Origin: Defluviitaleaceae bacterium
GTDB taxonomy: Bacteria; Bacillota; Clostridia; Lachnospirales; WQUN01
Reading direction: 5' to 3'
DNA length: 49,066 nt
NCBI GenBank assembly: GCA_009785605.1
Contig: WQVY01000009.1
Coordinates: 1 to 49,066, forward strand
Numbering within the stretch: position 1 is the stretch's first letter; every line of letters starts with the position of its first letter. A program made the position numbers and the translations under genes. The notes below the pieces were generated by a model, which made no database searches, was not told the origin of the DNA, and saw nothing but the letters and a program-made list of their open reading frames with translations. This document shows positions 6,496 through 22,802 of the stretch, piece by piece.

Positions 6496-8040
6496 CTATG
6501 GCCTAACCGGATACCAGTCATACAACGTGCTTGTCATGTCGCGCTCGGCAACCAGTACCGCTGCTGTAATATTGCCGCCCGGGTATACAGTCATCATACC
6601 AGTTATGATGTCGCAGTTAAATTTATATCCTAGCTTTTGCGCTGCTATATGGACATTGTCACCGATGTGGAACGCTGAGCCTTTAGTATATTCGAAAATG
6701 ACCCACTTGGATGCATCAATCTTTTGGATATAAGGGTTATGCTTCATTAGCGCGTTTATATCTGTTATATCTGGCTCAAGAATACCGAAAGTTAGACGCT
6801 GCCCGCCCGTTAGGTCTGCTTCATAATCTACAGAGTGATAGTGGTATATTGGGGCATTGGGCTTCCTATATTCGTTTAAAATATCCAACCGGCCATCGTT
6901 TTTTATTTCTTGGATAAATTGCTCATGGCCATAGTCGTCAGATAGTATTGTTGTAAACCCAATTAATGTTATTTTATTTTTTTGTACATGCCATGCTTTT
7001 ACGCCACATTTTTCTACGCTGCCTGTTATTTCTTTCGGTATTTCCTCTATGGCTTTGTATGGTTTTATAGGGAATAACATTTCCCATTGTACATCGCAAA
7101 AGTTGGGGTCTTGTACATTGTGATAGTAATTTAAATGCTCAAGAAAGTTAAACTCCAGCCCTGCAAAGCTGCTTATGTCCTGTAGCGGTGGGTCAATTCG
7201 TGTGAAGTCACCGTCATATTGGTAAACCTCGCTATTGGTTATCCATGCATATACCCGCTTATAGTCATACCAATTAACATCAAGTGCTGTTACATACATG
7301 CCGCCGTGTAAGCGCTTTTTTACAAGCGGTTCAGGGACTTCTAACTCGCATGGGATAGATACACACATTTCAAACCCATCATCATTTTCGGTTGGGTGGT
7401 AAAATCCTAGCTGGCGTATATCTGGTTTTACTTGATAAATGTTATTGTTTCTTACAAACTCATCAACTATTTTTGCAGCGTTTTCTTTTGGGTTTTCTCC
7501 AATATGCCTATATGAAGCGATGGTCATGGGCGGTATAAACACCACTCTTGCATTATCTAGTTTGGTTAAGACTTCTGACGCTTGGTTTAGGTCGTTGAGG
7601 CTAATCTTCTCCTTGGTATTTTTTTGGACCAAGGAGAGGGGGGCAGTCAACTCTAATATTGCATCGCTGGTTATGTACTTGAGATTTAACTGGATATTGG
7701 TTTTTTCTTCAAGCTCAATTACAAACCTGTCCAAAATCTTTTTTATTGTGGACAAGGCAGTAATTTCTACATCCAGCTCTTGGATGCTTTTTTTGAAGAT
7801 ATCTACGACGGTGGTCGCGCTGGGGTTACTCAAAATAGTGCGTATCTGCTTTACTGGGATTTGTAATTTGCGCAGCACAATAATTTGTTGCAGACGCTCA
7901 ACAGTAGCGGCATCATAAACCCTGTATGAGTAGCCTTCTATCCGCTGGCTCTTTATAAGACCGCTTTGCTCATAGTAGCTTAACATCCTTTTAGAAATAC
8001 CATGTGTTTTTGAAATGGTGCTAACCGTTTGTAGTCCCAT
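6496..8040 (-). CDS. MerR-family regulator with two effector-binding regions
   Basis: A 514-residue protein. Residues 1-70 are a MerR winged helix (SKTHGISKRMLSYYEQSGLI, YRVYDAATVERLQQIIVLRKL), followed by a dimerisation coiled coil to about residue 125. The rest is much longer than in ordinary MerR proteins. It contains one GyrI/BmrR-like effector-binding domain (about 165-350) and a second region (about 360-514) with a similar fold pattern, ending YPVRP. Such domains bind drugs or other hydrophobic ligands. The ATG at 8040 has GGGGG eight bases upstream; an upstream in-frame ATG at 8073 has no such site. It is homologous along its N-terminal half to the regulator at 8821-9810. Confidence 0.85.
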   Translation of the reverse strand: MGLQTVSTISKTHGISKRMLSYYEQSGLIKSQRIEGYSYRVYDAATVERLQQIIVLRKLQIPVKQIRTILSNPSATTVVDIFKKSIQELDVEITALSTIKKILDRFVIELEEKTNIQLNLKYITSDAILELTAPLSLVQKNTKEKISLNDLNQASEVLTKLDNARVVFIPPMTIASYRHIGENPKENAAKIVDEFVRNNNIYQVKPDIRQLGFYHPTENDDGFEMCVSIPCELEVPEPLVKKRLHGGMYVTALDVNWYDYKRVYAWITNSEVYQYDGDFTRIDPPLQDISSFAGLEFNFLEHLNYYHNVQDPNFCDVQWEMLFPIKPYKAIEEIPKEITGSVEKCGVKAWHVQKNKITLIGFTTILSDDYGHEQFIQEIKNDGRLDILNEYRKPNAPIYHYHSVDYEADLTGGQRLTFGILEPDITDINALMKHNPYIQKIDASKWVIFEYTKGSAFHIGDNVHIAAQKLGYKFNCDIITGMMTVYPGGNITAAVLVAERDMTSTLYDWYPVRP

Positions 8041-8061
8041 GCTCGCGCCCCCTCTTGCTAG

Positions 8062-8092
8062 AGCATAAACCATTACATCGTGTATCAGTCAA
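8062..8092 (-). promoter_or_regulatory. MerR-type promoter with 19-bp spacer
   Basis: Reading the minus strand, TTGACT (8092-8087) and TATGCT (8067-8062) are separated by exactly 19 bp. The spacer contains ACACGATGT, a short near-palindrome. A 19-bp spacer with a dyad is the hallmark of promoters that MerR proteins activate by DNA untwisting. The gene just downstream is itself a MerR protein, so autoregulation is likely. Confidence 0.55.
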
Positions 8093-8820: not shown

Positions 8821-9810
8821 CTACTTCCTTTCTTTTATGGGGACTAGTAAATCAAGTTGCAGTCCGTCACTTTGAGCTGATTTTATGCGGTTGGTATAAT
8901 TCAATGTTTCTTCAAGGCAGCCCCACTGGTTTGGATTGTTCCAATCGCCGTTAAACTCGTATTTTGCGTTAGACAAGACCCACTTCATCAGCCATCCCCA
9001 TTCTTCGAATGCGCCGGCGGGAATCATATGTGCCGCGTACAACCCGCCACAAAAATATTTTTTTGTAAATGGTGCAGGTACAGTAAAGCCATCGGGGATG
9101 GTAACCCACATCTCATATCCATGGGCACCTGTTGGGTCAGATTCAAGAGGGTTGGGTGCGTTGAAGCCGTAATGCCGCAAGTCAGGTTTTAATTGTGGCA
9201 GGTTATTGTCCAGCACAAACTTGGTAATAGCTTGGCCTACGTGTTGTTCTGGTTCTTCTCCTTCAAACTGATATGCGGCGACTTCGGATGGGGGTAGGTA
9301 AATAACCCGTACGTCCTTGTCGGTTAACTTGTTTAGCTTTTCGCTTGCTTGATTAAGCTCACTTATGCTTTTTTCCTCATGTATTATATTTCTGGGAAAC
9401 GAAACACTGTCAACAACTGCAAATACGGAACTATCACCAAGAAAGTCCAACTGTAAGCGCATGTTTGCTTTCTCATACAACTCGTGGACAAGGCGACTAA
9501 GTATGGACTTAACTGTTGCTAAAGCAGTTATTTGTTCGTCCAGCTCGCTTATATTGCGCTCGAATATGTCTATGACACATACGGCATCACTATTGCTAAA
9601 AATCTCGTGTATTTGCTTTACAGGAACACGAAGCTTACGCAATATAATTATTTGGCGAAGCCGGCGTATTGTTTCTTCGTCGTATGCTCTGTAGGTGTAG
9701 TTTTCCATGCGGTTGCTGTTAATCAATCCTATTTGTTCATAATAGCGTAATGTTCGGCTTGATACACCAAGGCTTTTTGCTACTGTGCTAATGGGCTGGA
9801 GTTGGTTCAT
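8821..9810 (-). CDS. MerR-family regulator with GyrI-like effector domain
   Basis: A 329-residue MerR-type activator. The HTH occupies residues 1-70 (STVAKSLGVSSRTLRYYEQ, YRAYDEETIRRLRQIIILRKLRVPVKQ), then a coiled coil to about residue 120. A GyrI/BmrR-like ligand-binding domain follows to the end (EVAAYQFEGEEP ... GYEMWVTIP ... GGLYAAHMI). It is a clear paralogue of the larger regulator at 6496-8040. The ATG at 9810 follows AAAAAGGAGG. An upstream in-frame start at 9882 would run through the promoter and terminator and is rejected. Confidence 0.87.
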   Translation of the reverse strand: MNQLQPISTVAKSLGVSSRTLRYYEQIGLINSNRMENYTYRAYDEETIRRLRQIIILRKLRVPVKQIHEIFSNSDAVCVIDIFERNISELDEQITALATVKSILSRLVHELYEKANMRLQLDFLGDSSVFAVVDSVSFPRNIIHEEKSISELNQASEKLNKLTDKDVRVIYLPPSEVAAYQFEGEEPEQHVGQAITKFVLDNNLPQLKPDLRHYGFNAPNPLESDPTGAHGYEMWVTIPDGFTVPAPFTKKYFCGGLYAAHMIPAGAFEEWGWLMKWVLSNAKYEFNGDWNNPNQWGCLEETLNYTNRIKSAQSDGLQLDLLVPIKERK

Positions 9811-9836
9811 TGGGTACGCCTCCTTTTTGTATTTAT

Positions 9837-9867
9837 AATATAATGGTTGACGCGGTTGTCGTGTCAA
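9837..9867 (-). promoter_or_regulatory. MerR-type autoregulatory promoter with 19-bp spacer and dyad
   Basis: On the minus strand TTGACA (9867-9862) and TATATT (9842-9837) are 19 bp apart. An inverted repeat TTGAC-N11-GTCAA spans from the -35 box into the spacer. This is the expected layout of a MerR operator. The -35 box directly abuts the T-tract of the Hsp70-cluster terminator. Confidence 0.65.
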
Positions 9868-9923
9868 TAAAAAATTGCCCAAACGGAAAAATCATTTATA
9901 CATGATGTTTTCCATTTGAGCAA
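9866..9923 (-). terminator. Strong terminator of the Hsp70 cluster
   Basis: TTGCTCAAATGGAAAA and TTTTCCGTTTGGGCAA (minus-strand sense) form a long stem with few mismatches, followed at once by TTTTTTATT. It closes the minus-strand transcript that includes the Hsp70-vWA gene and separates it from the MerR promoter. Confidence 0.85.
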
Positions 9924-9967: not shown

Positions 9968-12043
9968 CTACAGCCGTATTAGCTCTGCGATACTCATGGC
10001 GATATTGTCCAAGATGTCAAAGAACTTGTCGTTTAAGTCATAAAACTTGCCATTGGGCTTGGTTAGTGGGTCGTATGCGTCTATGCTTTCCCTGTCTTTG
10101 CGGGCTACTACGTATGTGATAACGCTCCGCTCTGCAAGCATGTTGCATACGTCTGCTACAGATTTGCCGCTTACTGTTGGTACATGTGGCGGTGCGTCTG
10201 TTATTAGGATAAAAATGTTCTTGGCTATCCCTTCTTCGCGGTGAGATTTTAGTAGCTCAACCCCGGTTTCCAGCGCGTCCAAGGAAGATTCTGGTATGTC
10301 TCCGCCATAGGTGCGTGGGATGTTTTTCACTTGTTTTTGGAATTTTGGTACGTCGTCTGTGAAGTTGTACACGCTGGGTTTTTCGTTTTCGCCTAAGTCA
10401 CCAAAACCTATAAGACCTAGCTTGTACGCGGCACCTTTTGAGGCCAGTATTGATGAAAATTCTATTGCCCTATCTTTTACACCGTTAATATAGGTGTCCA
10501 TAGATCCGGTGGTGTCTATCAAGAATACGACGTTTACCTTATCGCTGCCACCAGCGGACTTTGGCGGTGGCGGTGCAGCTGGCTTAGAACGGTCAAACTC
10601 CGCGCGCTCTGCGCGGCCGGTGGCCAAATCTTTTACATATACTTCGAAGATATTGTTTTCGTCTATGGCGTATGTGATTTCTAGTTGGGTGACGCCAGTC
10701 AACCCCGAAAGTGCTACTGTGCCAATATATTTGCGGGCATCTTCGTTGCCTTGTTCCCACTGATATACATCTACATTTACGCGGCTTGCCCCGGACATAG
10801 ACGCAAAATTACTGTCGCTGAATTTGCTGGGGATGGGGCTACCCATGGGTATGATGGGGATGGCTTGGCGCTCCATGGTTGCGATATTGGTTACGGCCTC
10901 TGTCCCAAATACTTGGCGGGTAATTTGCCCTACGCGTACTTGCCTATCTGGCAGGTGAATCAGGTAGTTGTATATGCTTGCGCCCATTGCCACGCTCTTG
11001 GCTGGGTCTGTAGCGCGGTATGGCTCTTTTAGGTAACCGGCAACCATGCGGCGCACCATGGGTATCAAAGTAGAGCCGCCTACTAATACCACCTTGGAAA
11101 CTTCGTCTGTATGGATATCTGCACGCTTTAGGGCTTCTTCTATTATGTCGCGGCTGCGGTCAACATATTTGCGTATCATCGCTTCGAACTCTTCGCGGGT
11201 GATTTCTGCGTTTAAGTTTTTGGGTACGCCGTCTACTATAACTAGCGGGTTGATGCGTACAGATACTTTGTTTGTGCCTGATAATTTTTTCTTGGTCTGC
11301 TCTGCTTCTTGCCTCAGTTTTTGCATTACGCGCTTGCGCTCTGCTGTGTCTAGACTGTCTAGGTCCACGCCGGTTTGCTCCGTAAAAGTGGACTTCATCC
11401 AGCGCACTAGCTCTGCGTCAAAATCGTCGCCGCCTAGGTTCATGTCGCCTACATCTGATAGTTCTTGGAAGATTTCTTGCCCGTTTTCGTCTAAAGATAC
11501 ACGCAATACACAAGCATCGAATGTACCGCCGCCCAGGTCATATACAAGCAGGGTTTGGGCATAGTTTTGGCGGTAGCCGTATTCTATTGCCGCCGCTAGT
11601 GGCTCGCTAAGCAGGTGCACATTTGTAAACCCTGCTATAAGGCCCGCTTGCTTGGTTGCGAAAATTTGCCTGTCGTTGAAGTACGCGGGGTGGGTGATTA
11701 CTACTTCGTCGAAACGTTCGCCTGCTTGGGCCTCGGCAGCTTGCTTTAGCTTGCGCAAAATTGCAGCACTTACCTCTTCTGGGGATTTTTCGCCGGTGCT
11801 TACAAATACCATTTCGCCGCTGCCCATCATACGCTTTACAGACATTATTGTGCTTTCTGGGTAAATAATAGCCCCTGCCTTTGCTTCTGCGCCTACTATT
11901 ACACCTTCGTCGTGGTAGCATACTACGCTTGGTAGTATTTCGTCTGTACCGTCTATTTTTACTACGTCTAGCTGGTCGTTCTTGTCGTTGTAAATGATTG
12001 CTACTGAGTTTGTTGTTCCTAAGTCTATGCCTAGATATGCCAT
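9968..12043 (-). CDS. Hsp70/DnaK-like ATPase fused to a von Willebrand factor A domain
   Basis: A 691-residue protein. The Hsp70 nucleotide-binding domain is complete: phosphate-1 loop GIDLGTTNS near residue 4, phosphate-2 loop VYDLGGGTFD, and the adenosine motif VVLVGGSTLIP. A short beta-type substrate-binding region follows (about 385-485) without the helical lid of DnaK. A proline-rich linker (KPAAPPPPKS) leads to a vWA domain from residue 501 to the end, with the MIDAS metal motif DTTGSM at 510-515 and a second conserved Asp in LITDAPPH. I infer an ATP-driven client-binding protein whose vWA part recognises partners through a metal ion. It is the last gene of the cluster, just before the terminator. 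Confidence 0.92.
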   Translation of the reverse strand: MAYLGIDLGTTNSVAIIYNDKNDQLDVVKIDGTDEILPSVVCYHDEGVIVGAEAKAGAIIYPESTIMSVKRMMGSGEMVFVSTGEKSPEEVSAAILRKLKQAAEAQAGERFDEVVITHPAYFNDRQIFATKQAGLIAGFTNVHLLSEPLAAAIEYGYRQNYAQTLLVYDLGGGTFDACVLRVSLDENGQEIFQELSDVGDMNLGGDDFDAELVRWMKSTFTEQTGVDLDSLDTAERKRVMQKLRQEAEQTKKKLSGTNKVSVRINPLVIVDGVPKNLNAEITREEFEAMIRKYVDRSRDIIEEALKRADIHTDEVSKVVLVGGSTLIPMVRRMVAGYLKEPYRATDPAKSVAMGASIYNYLIHLPDRQVRVGQITRQVFGTEAVTNIATMERQAIPIIPMGSPIPSKFSDSNFASMSGASRVNVDVYQWEQGNEDARKYIGTVALSGLTGVTQLEITYAIDENNIFEVYVKDLATGRAERAEFDRSKPAAPPPPKSAGGSDKVNVVFLIDTTGSMDTYINGVKDRAIEFSSILASKGAAYKLGLIGFGDLGENEKPSVYNFTDDVPKFQKQVKNIPRTYGGDIPESSLDALETGVELLKSHREEGIAKNIFILITDAPPHVPTVSGKSVADVCNMLAERSVITYVVARKDRESIDAYDPLTKPNGKFYDLNDKFFDILDNIAMSIAELIRL

Positions 12044-12067: not shown

Positions 12068-12631
12068 TTACAGGTGTGATGTATCGTTTTCCAGCACTAT
12101 ACCGAATGTGCCGTCATCACGTTGTTTAAACATGTGGATAGCCGTGTTGCCTATGGCAAACCGCTTTTTGTCCGTTATGGGAAGTTCGAGCAATCCACAA
12201 ATAATAGCGCGCATCGTCCCATGGTGGCCGACTATAAAAATATTCTCTTTTCCACATGCGATAATTTCTTTTAAGTATCCTTGTACTTGCGCAAAATATG
12301 CTGGCGTACGTGCCTCTAGAAATTTATTAAAGGCGGCGAGGGTTTTTGCGTCATTTATGCTTTTGCCCTCAAACTCGCCAAAGCTAGATTCCCGTAGTAG
12401 CGGCGAGGTAATCATCTCTACATTGTGGCGTGAATTAATTATCTCTGCTGTTTTTCGTGCACGGAGCAGGTCGCTTGTGTAGATGATATCGCATGGCTCG
12501 TTTGCCAGCCTTGCCGCCAACTTTTCTGCCTGTTGTATGCCAGTCTGGTTAAGCTCTATATCTCTGGAGCCTTGCGGCTTGCGTTCACGGTTCCAGTCTG
12601 TTTCGCCATGGCGTATGGTTGTTATTCTCAT
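12068..12631 (-). CDS. Histidine phosphatase (phosphoglycerate mutase-like) family
   Basis: A 187-residue enzyme with the RHG motif at its N-terminus (TIRHGETDWN), a conserved Arg (LLRARKTAEII), the acid residue in LLRESSFGEFEGK and the second catalytic His in VGHHGTMRA. Members include cobalamin, sugar-phosphate and protein phosphatases; the substrate is not evident. Its ATG overlaps the stop codon of the upstream Hsp70 gene by four bases (ATGA), so translation is coupled and it probably works with the Hsp70 proteins. Length is normal for the family. Confidence 0.88.
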   Translation of the reverse strand: MRITTIRHGETDWNRERKPQGSRDIELNQTGIQQAEKLAARLANEPCDIIYTSDLLRARKTAEIINSRHNVEMITSPLLRESSFGEFEGKSINDAKTLAAFNKFLEARTPAYFAQVQGYLKEIIACGKENIFIVGHHGTMRAIICGLLELPITDKKRFAIGNTAIHMFKQRDDGTFGIVLENDTSHL

Positions 12632-14307
12632 CCGCCCACCTCGGCCTTCTTAAACCTATCCGGGTCAAAACTTTCCCTAAAACCACTAGCCGGGAACTCC
12701 GCACCAAAACCCATATCCTCCACCATACCACGCACCAGCCCGCCTTCTTCTTCCACCATTAGCGTAACTTTTAGCTTAGTCTTGCCGCTGGGGCGCACTG
12801 GCAGCCCTTTTATAGAAACCTCGCCTATGGTTTTACAAGCTTCGTATGGGTCGTTGGCGTCAATTCGCTCAAGTATCTTCAAATCAAGCCCAGACATTTC
12901 CTCTGGCGTGGCACCAGAAAGTGTGAACACATGGCTTTTCTTGGCCAGTGCGAAAGAAGTCCCGCGCCGTATCATGGGGAAGAAGCTCTTGCGCGTGCCG
13001 CTGGCAAGCTCCAGCCCGATATCATGGCTGACGGTAACTTCAAACTCTACAGACATCTTTGGCGCGGCTGCGGTACCGGGACTGCTATCGGCCCCAGCCC
13101 CAGTTTTCTCGGACTCAACATCCGGGCTTGCCAATAATCCCATTTTCATGGCGGCGTAATAGGTCGCCCCAAGCGAAATATCCAGCGCTGGCCTTTCCGA
13201 TGAATAAATTTTGTCCTTGTCGCCAAAAATATCTAAAAGCATTTCCCGCACCCATGGCATCTGGGACGAGCCACCGCCTACAAGCACCCTGTTTATATCG
13301 TTGGGTGTGAGGCTGCCGGTGTATGTCTCGCGCAGTGCCTTGAGTACTAACTTGCGGGTTTTATCTATGAAAGGATGGATGAGATCATGAAATTCTTCAC
13401 GGGTGATTTGTTCAACGAAGGGCGGTATGCAGAACGTGAATGGGATGCGGAAACGCTGGACACCAGTGAGCCGTTCCTTGGCTTCCCTGGCCCGCGCAAC
13501 CAGCTCAACTTGATTTTCTATAGCCAACTCGGTCGCGTGTACCCCGGTTTTGGTTTTTATTAAGTCGCCGCACATGGCAATTAGGACGGTATCTACATCG
13601 TCGCCGCCATGATGAGCCTCGCCGCCTTGGCTTATTACTTGCAGTTTTATGCGGGCGTCGTTACGCTCTGTTACATGGAATATTGTAATATCTAGCGTGC
13701 CGCCGCCAAAGTCGAAGACCATAATCCGCTCGTCCTGCTCTAACTGGCGGCGGAAATTGTACTCTAGGGCCGCCGCGTTGGGTTCCTTGATAAGGCAGAT
13801 TAGTTGCTGTTTAAGCCCTGCCATTTCACATGCCCGCACGGTGGCCTTTTGCGCGGCATCATCAAAGTCATATGGCACAGATACTACCAAGCCGGCTATT
13901 TCAGCCTTGGGGTTCATGCTCTGGGCATGGCTAACCAGCTCCTGCAATATCTTTGCGGAGATTTCTTCTGGGAGATAGTCCTTGCCGCCAAGGCTTACTG
14001 TTTCGTTTGTACCCATCTTGCGCTTTATAGAGCGGATTGTTGTCTCTGGGTAGATTTTCATGCTGCGGTAGGCTTCGTCGCCTATTACCCACTCGTCATG
14101 GTCATCGTCTGGGCGGTATTGCACTACCGAGGGTAGCGGTATTTTGCCAAAGCCGTTGCTTATGTCTATAGGCTCTGGCCGCCCGGCTTGGTTGTCCCAG
14201 TACGAGATTACGGAGTTTGTCGTACCCAGGTCTATGCCTAGGATGTACCAATCTTCTGGATACTTGCCGGTTTCTTCTATTTGCTTGCGGTAGGTTTCCC
14301 AGTTCAT
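12628..14307 (-). CDS. Hsp70/DnaK-like protein without lid domain
   Basis: A 559-residue protein with intact ATPase motifs: GIDLGTTNS at about residue 24, FDFGGGTLD at about 199, and VLVGGGSSQMP in the adenosine motif. A leader MNWETYRKQIEETGKYPEDW precedes the domain and resembles the leader of the degenerate paralogue at 15224-16807, so the two arose by duplication. The C-terminal 150 residues form a beta-type region (GLELASGTRKSFFP ... ISIKGLPVRPSGKTKLKV) with no helical lid. The ATG follows AAGAAGG. It is the first of three genes downstream of a palindromic repeat that splits the cluster. Confidence 0.88.
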   Translation of the reverse strand: MNWETYRKQIEETGKYPEDWYILGIDLGTTNSVISYWDNQAGRPEPIDISNGFGKIPLPSVVQYRPDDDHDEWVIGDEAYRSMKIYPETTIRSIKRKMGTNETVSLGGKDYLPEEISAKILQELVSHAQSMNPKAEIAGLVVSVPYDFDDAAQKATVRACEMAGLKQQLICLIKEPNAAALEYNFRRQLEQDERIMVFDFGGGTLDITIFHVTERNDARIKLQVISQGGEAHHGGDDVDTVLIAMCGDLIKTKTGVHATELAIENQVELVARAREAKERLTGVQRFRIPFTFCIPPFVEQITREEFHDLIHPFIDKTRKLVLKALRETYTGSLTPNDINRVLVGGGSSQMPWVREMLLDIFGDKDKIYSSERPALDISLGATYYAAMKMGLLASPDVESEKTGAGADSSPGTAAAPKMSVEFEVTVSHDIGLELASGTRKSFFPMIRRGTSFALAKKSHVFTLSGATPEEMSGLDLKILERIDANDPYEACKTIGEVSIKGLPVRPSGKTKLKVTLMVEEEGGLVRGMVEDMGFGAEFPASGFRESFDPDRFKKAEVGG

Positions 14308-14337: not shown

Positions 14338-14435
14338 TAGACTTCTCTGGAAACTTCCTCTGCGGCCAAAAAATCTTAGGCATTAGTAAGTTTTTTGGCC
14401 GCTAAATCGGAGTTTCCGGAGAAGTCAAATGTCTA
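14338..14435. repeat. Nested-palindrome repeat, full copy A
   Basis: An outer inverted repeat (GACTTCTCTGGAAACT with AGTTTCCGGAGAAGTC) encloses an inner perfect stem starting GCGGCCAAAAAA and ending TTTTTTGGCCGC around the core TAGGCATTAGTA. The same design with compensating changes recurs near 23.0 and 25.7 kb. It lies between the HEPN gene and the Hsp70 gene and touches the HEPN stop codon. It has no transposase and no open reading frame, so it is a MITE-like or REP-like element. Confidence 0.85.
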
Positions 14436-14882
14436 TGTTATTTCTAATGTTGGAAAAGAGTCTAATTCTAATGCTACATTATTGGATGTTTTTATTAACA
14501 TTTCCAGTTCGGATACGAAATATTTTTCTAGCTCTTCGCATAGTTGTTTTGCCTTTTTTGCTTGGGCTTCTGTGATTTCTGTAAAATTGTCACCAGGATA
14601 TCTTGTGTTAAAATAAAACCCTGTAAGGTATCTTGCTTTGTCTCCTATTTCGCTTGTTGTGTGGGCTTCGTCGTATGATTCTAGGATTTTCTCAACTGCA
14701 TGTGATTTCAACAGCTTATGTTCTGGATATTTTTTTACTAAAAGAGCCTTCGCGCTTTTTTCAGCAAACTGGTGGAAATGAAATACCGCGGTCCTATACC
14801 TTTTATTTTCGTATGTGAAAATAGCATCATCTAAGTCTAGTAGCGCTATGCTTCTATAATCGGCCATAGATAACTTTTCCAT
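14433..14882 (-). CDS. HEPN-domain protein (partner of MNT nucleotidyltransferase)
   Basis: A 149-residue all-helical HEPN protein. Typical features are RYRTAVFHFHQFAEKSAKALL near residue 27, SHAVEKILESYDEAH in the middle and FYFNTRYPGDN near residue 92. HEPN proteins are often RNases or toxins and are commonly encoded with a minimal nucleotidyltransferase, as here. The RX4HXY catalytic motif of the HepT branch is not obvious, so nuclease activity is uncertain. The start may be the ATG at 14882 or the one at 14867 (MADYRS); neither has an ideal ribosome site. It overlaps the MNT gene by 14-29 bp, so the two are coupled. Confidence 0.78.
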   Translation of the reverse strand: MEKLSMADYRSIALLDLDDAIFTYENKRYRTAVFHFHQFAEKSAKALLVKKYPEHKLLKSHAVEKILESYDEAHTTSEIGDKARYLTGFYFNTRYPGDNFTEITEAQAKKAKQLCEELEKYFVSELEMLIKTSNNVALELDSFPTLEIT

Positions 14883-15195
14883 CCTTTCTTATGCTTTCAA
14901 ACACTTGCGAGCCGTTTATCAATTTATTCTTATCACAATATATAAAATCCAACTCAAATTCATTTTGTGTTGTATCATAAAAATAATTTTCTATGTCACG
15001 CTTTTGCTTGATAGATAAATCTTCATCTGACACTATGCAAATATCCATGTCCGAATATTCATTGATATTGTTATTCGCAACCGAGCCAAAGAGGATTATC
15101 ATTTCGGCAGCGAATGTATGGGTCTTTATGTCAGTAAAAAGGATGTTTGCCGCATTTTTCATACGTACAAGTTTTATGTCATTATTCCTATCCAT
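14854..15195 (-). CDS. MNT-type minimal nucleotidyltransferase (antitoxin-like)
   Basis: A 113-residue protein with the nucleotidyltransferase signature GSVANNNINEYSDMDI, in which GS and the DxD pair bind metal and nucleotide. A third acidic residue is in FELDFIYCD. In characterised MntA-HepT systems such proteins transfer AMP groups to the HEPN toxin and silence it; here the pairing with the downstream HEPN gene supports the same idea. It starts 29 bp after the degenerate Hsp70 gene ends, in the same direction, so the pair lies inside the Hsp70 operon. Confidence 0.85.
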   Translation of the reverse strand: MDRNNDIKLVRMKNAANILFTDIKTHTFAAEMIILFGSVANNNINEYSDMDICIVSDEDLSIKQKRDIENYFYDTTQNEFELDFIYCDKNKLINGSQVFESIRKDGKVIYGRL

Positions 15196-15223: not shown

Positions 15224-16807
15224 CTATAACTTCACCGCAAACTCCCCAGCATAACCCGTCTTGGGAAACAACTCCCCAAAGCCCAAGTCCTCAACACTTA
15301 GCGTCATATCTGTATTGGACTTGAAATTTACGCCAAACCTCAAACGGGTTGTGCCTTTGGGGCGGGCGGGCAGCCCTGTTAGATTATAGTTGCCAAGCTG
15401 ACTTGACTCGCCGGCATATGTGCGCTGGGCCAATGTAATATTTAGCTCACCGTTTACGGGGCTATTTACCAGTATCAGTGTAGACTGGTGCTTTTGCCAC
15501 CAAAACGTACCCATCTGCGCTAGTGGAAGAAATACATCACCTGTACTTATCCCGATATCTACGTGTAGCTGGTGATTGTCCTCTATACTTACGCTGCGCC
15601 CCTTGGTTATGCCCAATATCTTTGCTGCTACATATGCAGCGCCTTCTGCAGTTACTAGCTTGGTGTTTTTGTACATACGTATTTGCGACTGCGTAAATAT
15701 GGCCGATACAGCTTCGCGGGCCCAAAGCATTTCGAAGCCACCGCCAACGCATATCACACTGCCTATATCATGGGGAGGTATTGCTTTGGCACGGGTGTTG
15801 CCAGTAGGCTCTGCACCCATGCTAAGGGTTTTTTCTAATGTGTCGCGGATAAAATCAGCAAACCGCTGGCGGTATGGCTTAATTATTACCTCTGTCTCGG
15901 CATGGGTTATGGTTTGTTGGAAGGGAGGGTACACGAAGTTGAAGTATAATTTTGCCGGCTTTGTGCGGATATTTTTTTGAAACAAGATATCTTTGTGCTG
16001 GTAGGTAAAGGCGGTTAGTTGCTCGCTTAACTGTGAATCATTATTTCCCGGGTCATAGTTGCCTGAGTCGTGTACTTGGTCTTGGTAATAAGACTCAAAC
16101 AGGCTGTAGACTTCGTCTTCCAACATACCCGTACCTATACTATCATCAAATAAACTAGACAAGCTTTTTACATTGGCATCACTGCCCGCTACATACACAC
16201 CACCACGCACTTCACGGCTACCATAGTCAAGTAGCAATACTTTTTCGTCTTTGGGTGTGCCTTGGAAATGGTGTGCTAACACGCACTCCCTGTCCGGGAT
16301 AAGCGCTATAAGTTCCTTTTCATACCCTGCATGTTTAAAAGCCCGCAGTAGTTCTTCATATGCTGCCTCGCTAAGGTAGGCCGGTATGGCGGCCACTATG
16401 CCTACAATTTCGGCTTTGGGGTTTATATTGCGCACGCTTGACAGCAGTTCTCGGATAAACAACCCCAATATGGACACAACACTTACAGGTTTACCCCCTA
16501 TATCCAGATAGTCTGAGTTGCCTAGCCGCCTGGCTAGGGACTGCAGGGTTATTTCTGTACCGGTGCCTTGGTTTAGTATGGCGTACTCGCCAAATACCCA
16601 TTCTTTTGTTTCTGGGATGTATTGCATTGCAGTGGGGATTGTAGGCTTGCCATAACCGCCGCTTGGGTCTATGGGCTCGGGCGCGTTTTCGTATAAGTTG
16701 TAGAAAGCTATCCCTGTAGAGTCGTTGCCTATGTCCAGGCCAATTATATAGTATGTTTCGTCATATTTTTCTGTCAGGGGTAGGTCTTTATAGCGTTTCC
16801 AGTTCAT
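15224..16807 (-). CDS. Degenerate Hsp70-like protein (pseudo-chaperone)
   Basis: A 527-residue protein recognisable as Hsp70 by its overall order and the retained adenosine motif SVICVGGGFEMLWAR. The ATP contacts are altered: phosphate-1 reads GLDIGNDSTG instead of DLGTTNS, and phosphate-2 reads LLDYGSREVRGG with no GGGT. It probably does not hydrolyse ATP normally and may act as a regulatory or scaffold partner. The C-terminal beta region (NYNLTGLPARPKGTTRLRFGV) is conserved with the paralogue at 12628-14307. I chose the ATG at 16807 (MNWKRYKD) because GGAG lies at good distance and the leader matches the paralogue; an ATG 12 bp upstream lacks this. Confidence 0.85.
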   Translation of the reverse strand: MNWKRYKDLPLTEKYDETYYIIGLDIGNDSTGIAFYNLYENAPEPIDPSGGYGKPTIPTAMQYIPETKEWVFGEYAILNQGTGTEITLQSLARRLGNSDYLDIGGKPVSVVSILGLFIRELLSSVRNINPKAEIVGIVAAIPAYLSEAAYEELLRAFKHAGYEKELIALIPDRECVLAHHFQGTPKDEKVLLLDYGSREVRGGVYVAGSDANVKSLSSLFDDSIGTGMLEDEVYSLFESYYQDQVHDSGNYDPGNNDSQLSEQLTAFTYQHKDILFQKNIRTKPAKLYFNFVYPPFQQTITHAETEVIIKPYRQRFADFIRDTLEKTLSMGAEPTGNTRAKAIPPHDIGSVICVGGGFEMLWAREAVSAIFTQSQIRMYKNTKLVTAEGAAYVAAKILGITKGRSVSIEDNHQLHVDIGISTGDVFLPLAQMGTFWWQKHQSTLILVNSPVNGELNITLAQRTYAGESSQLGNYNLTGLPARPKGTTRLRFGVNFKSNTDMTLSVEDLGFGELFPKTGYAGEFAVKL

Positions 16808-16830
16808 ACAAATCTCCATCCTGAGGCTTT

Positions 16831-16849: not shown

Positions 16850-18712
16850 CTACCTTGCGGCTATTACATTGGCCCGTAGTATCACTTGGTCTTTATACTT
16901 GTAGCCACTGGTCATTACTTTTATTATTTCGCCTTTGGCAAAACCGTCTGTTTCTTCGGCCAACAGCACCTCATGCTCGCGCCCGTTAAAGGGCTCATGT
17001 GCAGCAGGGCGGATTACGGTTATTCCTTTTTCGGCCAACAGTGGTTCTAGTTTAGCAAATGTTTCGTCCAAAAGGCTGACCGCGGCAGCTACGTGCGGCA
17101 GAGGCGACTCCCTTAAGCGGGATACACTGTGGTATAGGATTTCCTCGTAAGTGCTAATCTCGTATAGCAGGGTCTCCTTCTTAAAACGGAAGGAGGCTTT
17201 TTCTATTTTTGCGGATGTGCTTGCAATGTGCTTTGCAAATTGCCCGTCATATGCAGCGAACGCCTCCAAGGATGCACATGCTGCAATAAAATCAGCTATA
17301 GTTTCTAATGTTGGAGGGTTGGCACACCAGGCCTCTTGCATCTGGGCGGCGGCGGTTAGCAAATCTTCTTCTGTAAGACGTGGCAGCCCACTGGGTATGG
17401 ACGCTAATAGTTGGGTGCTGTTTTCTGTAAATTGCTGGAGGCTTTCTGCTAGGCTTTCTACTTTTATTTCTAGAGTCTCTGTAATGCCGGTTAGGATTTC
17501 ATTATCTATGTTATGGCTGGGGATAGCTATAGATTCCTGTACGATGAGTTCGGGTTCGGGTTCTATTTCTGGTGCTAATTCTGGTTCTGATTCTAATTCG
17601 GTTGCATCGCTGGATGCTGGGCTGGGCTCTTGCTGGGTATCATGTAACGATACAAGTCCTGTCCCTGCTTCCACGAAAGAAGATACGATTTTTTCTGCGA
17701 GTGATATTTCATTTTTAACTTCTTGCTGCAGGTTATTAATTGACTCAAGATGGCTGGCGCGTAAACTTTCGAATAACTCGTCTGCCTTTGGCAGCAAGGC
17801 AGCCACGAAGTTTTGGTAGTCTATGTTGATGAGTATGGGCGCTAATATACCGGCTGTTAAAACATGTGTAAAATCTTGCTGTACACCAGGACCAGGCTCT
17901 AGCCGCGATGCATTGGTAGATTGCATCATTTTCCTAAGGCCGCTTACTACCGGCCCGGTTTGCTGATATGCCTCACGCAACTTTGATAGAATTGGGTATA
18001 GGTCATGCGCTGCATTATCGTTTGAGGCTTCGAACGCGTTTTCTATGGCCTTTACTTGCACTTGTATAATTAGGCCCAGCACTTCCCATTCCCGCTCTAA
18101 AAGGTCTGTATAATAGGCGGCGGTTTTGCGGGTATGCAGGTCGTCTATACTGGAAAGGCAAGCTTGTAGAGTTTGGGTGTAGTAGGCTTGTAGGCTTGGT
18201 TGTATTGCTTGTATGATGGATTCTTGCAGGGTATGTTGGGTGAGGTTGCTGCATGACTGGATATCGATACCCGCAAGATATGAATTTTCCAAGCTTTCTA
18301 TGTGCCATGCGATGCTTGTAATGGCTTGTTCTAGGATAGTGTACTTTTCTTTGGCAACTGGGTTGCCTTGACTTGTTGCGTCGTCTTCAAATTGCCTTAG
18401 GCGCGAACATAAAATATCGCAAAGCCCTGCAACCAAGTCTGGTGAGGTATCTTTGATAGGGCTGTCAAATAATCCTATCACTTCGCGATATGTTTCCATA
18501 AGACGTACTAGGTGGTTATAGACGCGCTCGTCACTTTGTCCTAAGCGTGAGCATGACAGCGCCTCTAAAGCCAATGCGTCGCAGGCAGATTGCCGTATGC
18601 ATGTGAAATAATTGGCTGCACCTTTATATAACGCTTCGCTTGTTTTGGCTTGCAAGTCCAGCCACGCACGCCAAAGTGCATCTATTTGGGTATCAAAACT
18701 TGATGCTAACAT
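16850..18712 (-). CDS. Large helical protein with C-terminal GrpE-like domain
   Basis: A 620-residue soluble protein. Residues 1-350 are almost entirely helical. A Glu/Pro-rich linker (about 365-400, ELESEPELAPEIEPEPEL) follows, then more helices. The last 60 residues match the beta domain of GrpE in order and spacing: GITVIRPAAHEPFN, REHEVLLAEETDG, a Gly before IIKVM, then SGYKYKDQVILRANVIAA. GrpE is the nucleotide-exchange factor of DnaK, about 200 residues long; this protein is three times that length. Lying between Hsp70-like genes, it is likely their dedicated exchange factor or co-chaperone. The ATG follows AAAGGGGA. Confidence 0.75.
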   Translation of the reverse strand: MLASSFDTQIDALWRAWLDLQAKTSEALYKGAANYFTCIRQSACDALALEALSCSRLGQSDERVYNHLVRLMETYREVIGLFDSPIKDTSPDLVAGLCDILCSRLRQFEDDATSQGNPVAKEKYTILEQAITSIAWHIESLENSYLAGIDIQSCSNLTQHTLQESIIQAIQPSLQAYYTQTLQACLSSIDDLHTRKTAAYYTDLLEREWEVLGLIIQVQVKAIENAFEASNDNAAHDLYPILSKLREAYQQTGPVVSGLRKMMQSTNASRLEPGPGVQQDFTHVLTAGILAPILINIDYQNFVAALLPKADELFESLRASHLESINNLQQEVKNEISLAEKIVSSFVEAGTGLVSLHDTQQEPSPASSDATELESEPELAPEIEPEPELIVQESIAIPSHNIDNEILTGITETLEIKVESLAESLQQFTENSTQLLASIPSGLPRLTEEDLLTAAAQMQEAWCANPPTLETIADFIAACASLEAFAAYDGQFAKHIASTSAKIEKASFRFKKETLLYEISTYEEILYHSVSRLRESPLPHVAAAVSLLDETFAKLEPLLAEKGITVIRPAAHEPFNGREHEVLLAEETDGFAKGEIIKVMTSGYKYKDQVILRANVIAAR

Positions 18713-18859: not shown

Positions 18860-20536
18860 TTAGTATAGCTCGTCCACAGACAACTCCGTTACTACACCGT
18901 CAGTAGATAAGCTGCGTGCAGTCACCTTAAGCATATTATCCTGCCCTACATGGAAGATGACTTTCACCTTTTCTTGACCTCTTGTGCCTTGGGGTATGCC
19001 CCTTAGCGACGTACCTGCCAGCCGTTTCATGCCTTCTTGGCTTACTTGCTGCGGCTTGTCCAAACTGCGGGGCACTGTATTTTCGTATACTACAATAGCC
19101 ATGCTGGTTATATTGTCAAAGTTGGTAACCAGCGGCTCTGTTGCATCTATGGTAAGGCCCTCTTTGGGGATGTCTATCCCTGATGGGACAATTTCCATAA
19201 AGCGGCGGCCGGCAATTTCCAACCCTAGTGGGTGGATGGTTTTTTCATGTACAACCGGGCCTTTGACGGTTGGCATCATTATCATATTGCAATAGTGGGC
19301 CGCACCTTGGGAAATACTCAGCGCTGGGCTTATCCTTGACTTGAATGGCTCTTTCTTAAAGCGCTCAGATATTTGCTCGCTTACATATAGTATAGAAGAA
19401 CTACCACCTACCAGGAAAACTTCGTCTATATCTGCTTCTGTTAGGCCGCCGGCCTCTAGACAATGGTCTACACAGGTAAGCGTCTCACCTATCAAATCTG
19501 TTACAGATTTCCCCTGGAATTTTTCAAAAATAGCAGGGCTGTCGCCTAGGGCGTTTACCCGCTGGTGGGTCAAGAATTGTTCGCGCGTGATTTCCATATT
19601 TATATTAACAATGCGCGGCTCTTGGATTAGTGGGGCCAGGGTTATTTTTGTGGCTTTGGTTTGGCTTAGGCGCTCTTTGGCTTGGGTGGCTGCCTGTTGC
19701 AAGCGCACAAGCGCTACTTTCTTCTGGCGCTTGGATACGCCATCGTCAACATTTTCGTCAAAAAGGTCTATTTCTTCGTTGGTAAGCTTTTTAAATTCTT
19801 CATATACCATATCCATTATAATTTTATCTATGTCGTTGCCGCCTAGGTTGTTGTCACCGTAGGTGCTTATTATGGAGATGGTGGGCTCCCCGGCTTCTTC
19901 TATTTTTACTTCCAGCACACAGGCATCAAATGTGCCGCCGCCAAAGTCGTATACCAGCACTTTCTTGTCGCTTGTTTCGTTGACTGCGTATGATATGGCT
20001 GCCGCAGCCGGCTCTAGCCTTAAATAGATGCTTTCAGGGTCAAAGCCTGCCAGTACGGCTGCTTCCTTGGTCATTTTCTTCTGCTTGTCTGTGGAGTTGG
20101 CGGGGACGGTTATTACGCAACCAGAAAATTCCCCTGTTATTCCCATTTCTTCTTGGGCGTATTCGTCGGCTTTTTGTTTTAGATGGCCAAGTATCTCCCC
20201 GGCAATTTGCTCCGGGGTGAACTGATAGTCTTTATCGTCTACATTTACTGTCAGCTTTGCATCGCTTCCCAGGTAGCGCTTAATAGACAGGACGGTAGAA
20301 AGAGGATAGATGATTGCCGCCTCCTTGGCTTGCACGCCAAATATACGCGACAGTTTGCTTTCGTCTTCCGGGTCAGATTCGAATTGGATAGCTGTGGGGA
20401 AGATGTTAGAACCATCTATAGGGATGGTTTCTGCCTCACCAGATTGAAAGTTGTAGATGCTTACAACAGAGTTGGTAGTACCAAAGTCGATGCCTAAAAA
20501 TAGGCCGCGTTCTGTGTCAAGTCCTAGTGTACCCAT
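18860..20536 (-). CDS. Hsp70/DnaK-like protein, first gene of the cluster
   Basis: A 558-residue protein with complete Hsp70 ATPase motifs: GIDFGTTNSV at about residue 15, VYDFGGGTFD at about 196, and VFLVGGSSSILY. A beta-type substrate-binding region fills the C-terminus (LGLEIAGRRFMEIVPSGIDIP ... LRGIPQGTRGQEKVKVIF), and the helical lid of DnaK is missing. Its sequence is nearest to the Hsp70 part of the vWA fusion. The start has AAGGAGG at 9 bp. A TGCTATACT element ends 27 bp upstream, so it probably leads the operon. No DnaJ gene lies nearby. Confidence 0.9.
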   Translation of the reverse strand: MGTLGLDTERGLFLGIDFGTTNSVVSIYNFQSGEAETIPIDGSNIFPTAIQFESDPEDESKLSRIFGVQAKEAAIIYPLSTVLSIKRYLGSDAKLTVNVDDKDYQFTPEQIAGEILGHLKQKADEYAQEEMGITGEFSGCVITVPANSTDKQKKMTKEAAVLAGFDPESIYLRLEPAAAAISYAVNETSDKKVLVYDFGGGTFDACVLEVKIEEAGEPTISIISTYGDNNLGGNDIDKIIMDMVYEEFKKLTNEEIDLFDENVDDGVSKRQKKVALVRLQQAATQAKERLSQTKATKITLAPLIQEPRIVNINMEITREQFLTHQRVNALGDSPAIFEKFQGKSVTDLIGETLTCVDHCLEAGGLTEADIDEVFLVGGSSSILYVSEQISERFKKEPFKSRISPALSISQGAAHYCNMIMMPTVKGPVVHEKTIHPLGLEIAGRRFMEIVPSGIDIPKEGLTIDATEPLVTNFDNITSMAIVVYENTVPRSLDKPQQVSQEGMKRLAGTSLRGIPQGTRGQEKVKVIFHVGQDNMLKVTARSLSTDGVVTELSVDELY

Positions 20537-20571: not shown

Positions 20572-20674
20572 CGATGATTACAACTCGCTTTGCTTACCCA
20601 ATAATGTACGATAACAAAAGGTGCAATGTATGGCGAAATTTGCACAACATATAAATGTTTCTTAGTATAGCATA

Positions 20675-20703
20675 AAAAAATCCATCCCGGAGGATGGATT
20701 TTT
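20675..20703. terminator. Bidirectional rho-independent terminator
   Basis: AAAAATCCATCC and GGATGGATTTTT form a perfect 12-bp stem around a 4-nt loop. On the minus strand a T-run follows. It ends the transcript of the SLH-CAP surface protein gene that stops at 20733. Confidence 0.85.
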
Positions 20704-20732
20704 ATCATATAAATTTATTTGCCAGTTGTTGT

Positions 20733-22802
20733 TTATGGGTTAGCCGTGTTGGCATCGCCAAATTTTTGCACCCAACGGTCCCTAAAGAACCCTACACCCA
20801 TTTGAGTATATTCTGGGTTTAAAATTGCAGCTCTATGGCCGGGGGAACTCATCCACGCTGCAACCACCTCTTCGGGTGTACGCTGCCAGATGGCTATGTT
20901 TTCGGCCCTTATCCTTGAACTAAACAACTCGCGGGATATGTTTGTAAAGTTGCCGTATACGATGCAATCGTGGTCAAAATAATTAAGGTCCGCCATGATT
21001 TGGGCCTTAAACCTTGAAGACATCATAAGGTTTGGGTTCATGTTTAGCGGCGCAAGTCCGGCATTTGCCCTTTCGATGTTGGTCAAGCGCAAAACTTCTT
21101 GCTCAAACTCGTTGACTCCGCCCAAGTAGCGATACTCGGCTATCCATTCGTCTAACTCTGCTTGCGTTAACCGCCTGTTTGGCAATTGTATTTCAGATTG
21201 CGGTATGTTTGGCGGGTTAATTACTCCTTCTTCTGTCTCTACAAGTATCATCGCCCACAGGTTTGAGAACGAACCCTGCCCCAACCCGGTATTAACAGCG
21301 CCTACGCCTACTTCTACGAAGTGCGGGTTAAGCAGGTTTGCCCGTTGGTCGGCTATTGCCATCCACCTTTGTACGACTATTTGTGCAGTTGGGTACCAGC
21401 GCATGAGGTGGTCTGCACCACTTAGTATAACGCCATCATACTCAAACAACTCGCGCACTATATTTGTAAGTGAGCTATAGTACGGGTTTATACCAAAATA
21501 ACTAAGTTCCAACATGCTTTGCGCCTTAAAGCGCGCAGCCAGCATTAGTGTCTGGTTTACGGCCAAGGGTGCAACGTCGGCATTTTCTCTTTCTCTGTTT
21601 ACAAGACGTATAAGCTCCAGCTCAAAGCTGTTGACCCCGCCACGCGCATGATAATTTATAATCCATTGGTCACGCTCTTGTGTTGTTAGGCGGCGACTGG
21701 GGATAGACATCAGTGGCGGTGGGGTGGCAGTTGGTGTATATGGCCCTGGGGTTGAGGTAGGAGTGGCGGTAGGGGTAGCGGTTGGCGTTGCTGTGGGGGT
21801 GGTGGTTGCAGGTGTAGCCGTGGGGGTTGCTGTGGGTATAGGTGTAGTTCCTGGTGTGGCTGTTGGAGTTGGCGCCGGTGTTGCTGTAGGCCTTGCCGTT
21901 GCCGTTGGTGTTGGGGAAGGTGTTTGATTAGGCGCTATAGTAGGTGTAGGCATGGGTGTTGCTGTAGGCATGGGTGTTGGCATAGGTGTGGGGAATGGCG
22001 TTGGCATAGGCGTAGGGTGTGGCGTAGGCATTGGTGTTGGAAACGGTGTAGGCATGGGTGTAGGGAATGGCGTCGGGAACGGCGTTGGAAATGGTGTAGG
22101 GAACGGCGTTGGTGCCGGTATATAAGCCGGTAGCGATGCAGCATCTTGTGCCCTTGCGGTATTGGCATGGGCAAGTAGCCGCAACATAGAAATAATACTT
22201 TGCTCCCTGGTGTAAAGTGCGCGGGGCGCGAACATGTTGTTTCCTACCCCACCCATGATGCCAGTAGCTTGTACTTGCCCAACACCAGTAATGGCCCATG
22301 ATGCGATATTATGGTTGTCACTAAAAGTGGCGTGTTGCATCGGAAGCGGATAGCCTATCGCCACCGCCAAGCGCGAAATTAATGTAGCCGCTTGCTCGCG
22401 GGTTAGCGGGTTGTGAGGCGCAAACATATTATTGCCCACACCATCCACAACACCCAAGTATGCCATCCTTCCAACATTCATATCGTTGGTATCTGCAAAG
22501 GTTACAAACCCTGTAATTACCCGGCCAGTAAATGCCTCATACAAGGCAACCCCCAAAGCCGCAAACTCTGCACGGGTGGTGGCATGGTTATAATGGGACT
22601 GCATATGCGGGGGCACAAGGCCCAACATAATAGCTACTTCAATATCTGCACGCGCCCAACTGCTGGCAGACTCTAAACCTGGGGTGTATGCCTTGGCACT
22701 CGCCTGTACCGGCATAAGCAGTGCCGCAAACAAAAATAACGCTACAGACAGGCATATTTTCCTGTATATAGCGCCGATTATTGCCACTTTGTGTTTATTC
22801 AT
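20733..22802 (-). CDS. Secreted SLH-domain protein with Pro/Thr repeats and two CAP domains
   Basis: A 689-residue extracellular protein. Residues 1-37 are a signal peptide ([21 protein letters not shown]). Three S-layer-homology modules follow (about 40-220; [26 protein letters not shown]), which normally bind secondary cell wall polymer. A 130-residue Pro/Thr linker of PTPFPTPM and ATPTATP repeats follows. Two tandem CAP/SCP domains end the protein (about 385-500 and 545-685), each with the [17 protein letters not shown] and [17 protein letters not shown] type motifs. Bacterial CAP domains resemble YkwD; their role is mostly unknown. The first CAP copy is less canonical. Start follows AGGAGG. 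Confidence 0.9.
21724..22120. repeat. In-frame tandem repeats encoding the Pro/Thr linker
   Basis: Short degenerate repeats built on a GGTGTAGGCATGGGTGT-like unit encode the PTP(F/M/H) and TATP peptide repeats of the SLH-CAP protein. They are coding tandem repeats, likely to vary in number between strains. Confidence 0.75.

Follow-up and report, generated by a model that had tools for sequence, protein, structure and literature searches.

A 620-residue protein with a C-terminal GrpE domain, encoded among lidless Hsp70s, is a candidate dedicated nucleotide-exchange factor

GrpE is regarded as a homodimer that is small, uniform, and generalist, and residues of its helix bundle (D100, N101, R104, A105, and G122) matter for DnaK binding. 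Structurally, GrpE forms an asymmetric dimer, a wing of which enters the cleft of the nucleotide-binding domain (NBD) (PMC8215388), and, in human mortalin, the second GrpE wing contacts the lid (PMC11685456). An Hsp70–GrpE theme has been described in Firmicutes among the GAP1-N2 GTPase systems (eLife 2020, PMC7159879); as the relevant section of that paper sets out, it combines an Hsp70, a GrpE, an Hsp70 that lacks the peptide-binding domain, and a protein in which beta-repeats are joined to TPR or DnaJ. Searches of the open-access literature returned no account of a long GrpE of the kind described below, nor of the function of DUF5716 or DUF5717.

The window analyzed here, a stretch of 49,066 nucleotides from a Defluviitaleaceae bacterium, encodes a long GrpE-domain protein, GrpEL, within a cluster of Hsp70 genes (Table 1). 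The open reading frame drawn in the earlier note is real, with exact coordinates, and lies on the minus strand: it starts at an ATG at position 18712 with AAAGGGG immediately 5', and encodes 620 residues with no internal stop. GrpEL is found as a single reading frame in dozens of genomes from many families of one bacterial order, judged from gene content to be clostridial and perhaps Lachnospirales, at 17–54% identity to the window protein. This conservation across the order, with conserved neighbors, rules out a fusion that arose by chance or recently and has no special function, and likewise an error of annotation; we assign these a negligible likelihood even though the length is far beyond the GrpE range and an acidic Pro/Glu-rich linker (residues ~355–400) is present only in the window's species among 40 aligned GrpEL sequences. 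Matches at E ≤ 0.001 occur in 62 of 96 relatives, part of them ordinary GrpE near E 1e-4; by a strict count, GrpEL is carried by about 55 of the 92 tabulated genomes of the order. When the phylum (398 genomes) and the class (291) were sampled evenly, nearly every match besides the window's own protein was an ordinary GrpE of short length that scored far less significantly than GrpEL, so the family appears restricted to one order within the samples searched. No orthologue was found in viral contigs or plasmids, and one scan of a collection of genome contigs returned a single locus, that of an ordinary GrpE.

Table 1. Features of the GrpEL locus, with window coordinates and the basis of each assignment.
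Feature	Coordinates	Strand	Basis
GrpEL, 620-residue protein with C-terminal GrpE domain	16850..18712	-	ORF with Shine-Dalgarno sequence; Pfam GrpE; orthologues in the order
GrpE homology region of GrpEL (residues 483-620: distal stalk helix, helix bundle, beta-wing)	16853..17266	-	hhalign; residue comparison
N-terminal region of GrpEL (residues ~1-351), family-conserved, without known domain	17660..18712	-	40 orthologues; Pfam, PDB, and hhalign comparisons
HspD, 558-residue Hsp70, ATPase motifs intact, lidless, first gene of the cluster	18860..20536	-	PF00012 E 1.7e-69
HspC, 531-residue pseudo-Hsp70 with DUF5716_C	15224..16819	-	PF18980 E 6e-24; PF00012 E 3e-14
HspB, 559-residue Hsp70, phosphate and catalytic-Lys motifs intact, lidless	12628..14307	-	PF00012 E 8e-58; tracks GrpEL
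HspVWA, Hsp70 (NBD and beta SBD) fused to von Willebrand A	9968..12043	-	PF00012 E 1e-94
Likely terminator AAAATCCATCCTCCGGGATGGATTTTTTT, parting the cluster from the upstream gene	20660..20710	-	Direct view of the sequence; not called by the terminator scan

Gene order is shared by about 40 loci: DUF5717 (two proteins of ~400 and 900 residues), HspD, GrpEL, HspC, HspB, HspVWA, and a TPR protein (~390 residues), an arrangement that is sometimes split or partly dispersed in relatives. The window's genome keeps these outer genes away from the Hsp70 cluster: the DUF5717 pair is on contig C7 (locus L162, 7240–11187), its first protein weakly matching a HYDIN-like Ig domain, and the TPR protein is on contig C35. 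Beyond the window's family, 53 of 54 genomes agree in having both or neither of GrpEL and HspB (both in 21, neither in 32, HspB alone in none), and the lone exception, G042, has GrpEL only, at a contig end. Fisher's test gives p = 4e-14 for this co-occurrence, a value that overstates the evidence as the genomes are related and not independent. The tie to several Hsp70 paralogues proposed in the earlier note is strongly supported: in the window and in most relatives, Hsp70 genes flank GrpEL on both sides, and across families it comes and goes with HspB. DUF5717 is slightly more widespread than GrpEL, being present without it in G052 and in four genomes of family f5; the latter also have no HspB, and in two of them a recognizable DUF5716 gene adjoins DUF5717.

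Other genes of the minus strand are interspersed with the cluster or flank it. Between HspB and HspC (14433–15195) lie genes for a HEPN protein and a nucleotidyltransferase of the MNT type, a pair typical of HEPN/MNT toxin–antitoxin systems that is absent from this site in most relatives. The gene for a histidine-phosphatase-family protein (12068–12631), outside the conserved operon, lies between HspB and HspVWA and overlaps the HspB reading frame by four bases. Close to each other at 6496–8073 and 8821–9882, with a small unknown protein in between, are two related regulators of the MerR type joined to Cass2/GyrI-like effector-binding domains. At 20733–22802, a secreted-looking protein of 689 residues has a long Pro/Thr repeat tract and, by eye, apparent SLH-like and CAP/SCP-like parts. 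PADLOC assigned no defense family to GrpEL, and only weak ones to neighboring genes.

The Hsp70s of the cluster are of two kinds. HspD, HspB, and HspVWA keep the phosphate-1, catalytic-Lys, and phosphate-2 motifs throughout their orthologues, and in HspD the ATPase motifs are invariant in 32 sequences. HspC lacks the catalytic lysine (DnaK K70) in 37 of 37 sequences, which carry L, I, V, A, M, T, or P instead (here SIKR has become SLAR), and a search of the same 37 sequences for the phosphate-2 loop (GGGT; GGGTxD-type) found none; judged by these residues, HspC is a pseudo-Hsp70. All four end early or are rebuilt at the C-terminus: HspD matches DnaK residues 2–492 and stops 14 residues past the equivalent of 492, HspB and HspC terminate after the beta SBD and so have no lid, and in HspVWA the von Willebrand A domains, from residue 504, take the place of the lid.

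Besides GrpEL, a single GrpE is found in the window's genome; it is 187 codons long and belongs to a separate grpE-dnaK-dnaJ operon on contig C36, where it adjoins a full-length DnaK and the sole J-domain protein found in this 90% complete genome. Because of this operon, GrpEL is a second, specialized GrpE-type protein of the genome. The GrpEL locus itself has no gene for a J-domain protein. A weak Hsp70-profile match (37.6 bits) was seen on contig C42 of genome G000 (13027–13347, minus strand) in a 342-codon frame, perhaps of an MreB- or EutJ-like protein.

The C-terminus of GrpEL belongs to the GrpE family. Pfam GrpE (PF01025) matches residues 548–617 (profile positions 94–162 of 165) with E 4.4e-14 and a score of 52.9 bits, where the cut-off is 25.8, so that the profile search proposed in the earlier note came out positive, with no placement in another family. 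Thirteen NCBIfam GrpE models also match at E < 0.03, all far under their equivalog cut-offs (top score 31.8 bits versus 176). When the C-terminal half of 40 aligned GrpEL orthologues was compared by hhalign with ordinary GrpE (68 sequences, to which that of E. coli was added), residues 483–620 aligned with E. coli GrpE 67–194 (probability 98.3, E 2e-14), a span from which it follows that GrpEL holds the distal stalk, the bundle region, and the wing. The earlier note had placed a GrpE-like domain at the C-terminus and quoted its motifs, all of which are present; its extents need revision, from the last 60 residues to about 138, and from about 550 preceding residues to about 480.

Within this domain, the wing and the bundle have fared differently. 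In the merged alignment, the conserved F, H, GY, and R of the beta-wing are found in GrpEL (E. coli F149, H154, G177, Y178, and R186 correspond to F575, H580, G603, Y604, and R613), at 92–100% in the family, with one residue inserted in the wing relative to ordinary GrpE; the position of R183 (E. coli numbering) is variable. The bundle signature (PVLDNFERA, G122) is missing although the region aligns: D100, N101, R104, A105, and G122, each at 92–98% in ordinary GrpE, are replaced, and GrpEL has its own conserved signature, S/C-T-Y/F-E-E-I, within the family-specific set LLYEISTYEEIL..SVSRLRES. In a tree, the GrpE domains of GrpEL form one clade on a long branch (support 0.998). Ordinary GrpE has about 200 residues arranged as a disordered tail, a long stalk, a bundle, and a wing; because GrpEL has 620 residues with a conserved extra N-terminal half, we class it, from its sequence, among proteins that contain a GrpE domain and not as a GrpE orthologue.

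Since the ordinary bundle signature is replaced, the Hsp70-facing helices of GrpEL may bind differently or may not exchange nucleotide at all. Taken further, the GrpE domain would have lost exchange activity and kept only Hsp70 binding, and as an adaptor it would tether the Hsp70s to HspC, to DUF5717, or to some other structure. The substituted bundle and G122 speak for such an adaptor, and, as the pseudo-Hsp70 demonstrates, this operon does accept binding parts that do not catalyze; against this stand the wing residues, which are retained, and the absence of GrpEL where HspB is absent, as expected of an exchange factor. We regard loss of exchange activity as unlikely.

The N-terminal half is conserved (residues ~9–350 across the 40 aligned orthologues) and resembles nothing described. 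Searches gave no Pfam domain above cut-off and no hhalign match to ordinary GrpE (probability 2.5); the PDB chains that came up were weak matches, generic helices, or of low significance, and none was convincing. Matches to ADRM1 (residues 253–315, E 0.01–0.06) disappeared once the family profile was used and were rejected, as were those to apolipoprotein and designed bundles, which reflect helical composition. The N-terminal region is predicted to be helical in a single-sequence model of full GrpEL of very low confidence (mean pLDDT 38); a model of the C-terminal half aligned with one ordinary GrpE from locus L033 has pLDDT 44, and both models are too poor for a fold search.

A possible origin for this region is an internal duplication, of which the sequence gives a hint. 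The N-terminal half would be a degraded duplicate of the helical portion, making GrpEL a one-chain, single-wing pseudo-dimer in place of a two-winged homodimer. The profile of residues 91–291 aligns collinearly with that of 404–587 at a score of 34.7, above the best of 120 block shuffles (28.8) and two reversed profiles (18.6–19.8), and the alignment is led by a shared pattern (IL.GI..vL..rl..fee / IL.GI.ETi.IKi.sL.E). The operon Hsp70s also have no lid, the element that the second wing contacts in human mortalin (PMC11685456). The hhalign probability is only 40%, however, the shuffle test is small, helical profiles yield false matches, and the failure to match ordinary GrpE also speaks against a copy. 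A duplication is, in our estimate, quite improbable; it concerns how GrpEL is built and is compatible with the protein being a dedicated exchange factor.

GrpEL is probably a dedicated GrpE-type nucleotide-exchange factor for the Hsp70s of its own operon, for which the supports at hand are homology, conservation, co-occurrence, and co-location. In its favor are the GrpE profile matches, the retained wing residues, the separate clade, synteny, the co-occurrence with HspB, the four f5 genomes that have DUF5717 but neither HspB nor GrpEL, the ATPase motifs retained by three of the Hsp70s and missing from HspC, and the separate grpE-dnaK-dnaJ operon; against it are the replaced bundle signature, the variable R183, and the operon without a J-domain protein. 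Exchange activity, binding specificity, the clamping or scaffolding of several Hsp70s raised in the earlier note, and a single-chain pseudo-dimer are putative properties of GrpEL. In a dedicated exchange factor, the wing would enter the cleft in which HspD, HspB, or HspVWA binds nucleotide and would speed ADP release. The helical N-terminal half could dock GrpEL to a fixed partner, either the pseudo-Hsp70 HspC or the DUF5717/TPR proteins, in which case nucleotide exchange would take place inside one assembly. Because the locus encodes no J-domain protein, ATP hydrolysis might be triggered by the single DnaJ of the cell or by a TPR or DUF5717 protein, or the Hsp70s might hydrolyze ATP without a trigger. 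A fuller picture, tentative and somewhat unlikely as a whole, is a self-contained multi-Hsp70 machine of three lidless ATP-hydrolyzing Hsp70s and one pseudo-Hsp70, with one oversized GrpE as exchange factor and scaffold, possibly a one-winged single-chain pseudo-dimer, and no J-protein from the operon.

If GrpEL is a dedicated exchange factor, bacteria evolve private exchange factors for specialized Hsp70 machines, and the function of the DUF5716/DUF5717 families becomes testable. If it is also a single-chain protein with one wing, it offers a direct test of whether GrpE needs two wings.

Among known systems, the nearest described analogy to the GrpEL operon is the Hsp70–GrpE theme of GAP1-N2 systems (PMC7159879), whose description in the relevant section makes no mention of a long GrpE. 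The GrpEL locus differs from it in having more than one Hsp70 as well as a pseudo-Hsp70, partners of the DUF5716 and DUF5717 families, and no DnaJ domain, and no GTPase or GAP1 genes were found in the cluster, its 10-kb side within the window, or some flanks of locus L045. Within the same order, the f5 genomes share a core of HspC (DUF5716) and DUF5717, in some of them with a short TPR relative, but have neither HspB nor GrpEL; at L158 and L160, the reduced set consists of DUF5717 as one 1200-residue protein, DUF5716, and, in some genomes, a short TPR-like protein. This set is possibly an ancestral core or a reduced form. From the GrpE family itself (PF01025; E. coli GrpE, mitochondrial GrpEL1), GrpEL is set apart by its length (620 versus ~200 residues), its extra conserved N-terminal half of ~350 residues, its replaced bundle signature and G122, its coexistence with an ordinary GrpE, and its confinement to one order among the samples searched. 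What it shares with that family is the aligned distal stalk, bundle region, and beta-wing, the retained wing residues, and a genetic link to Hsp70.
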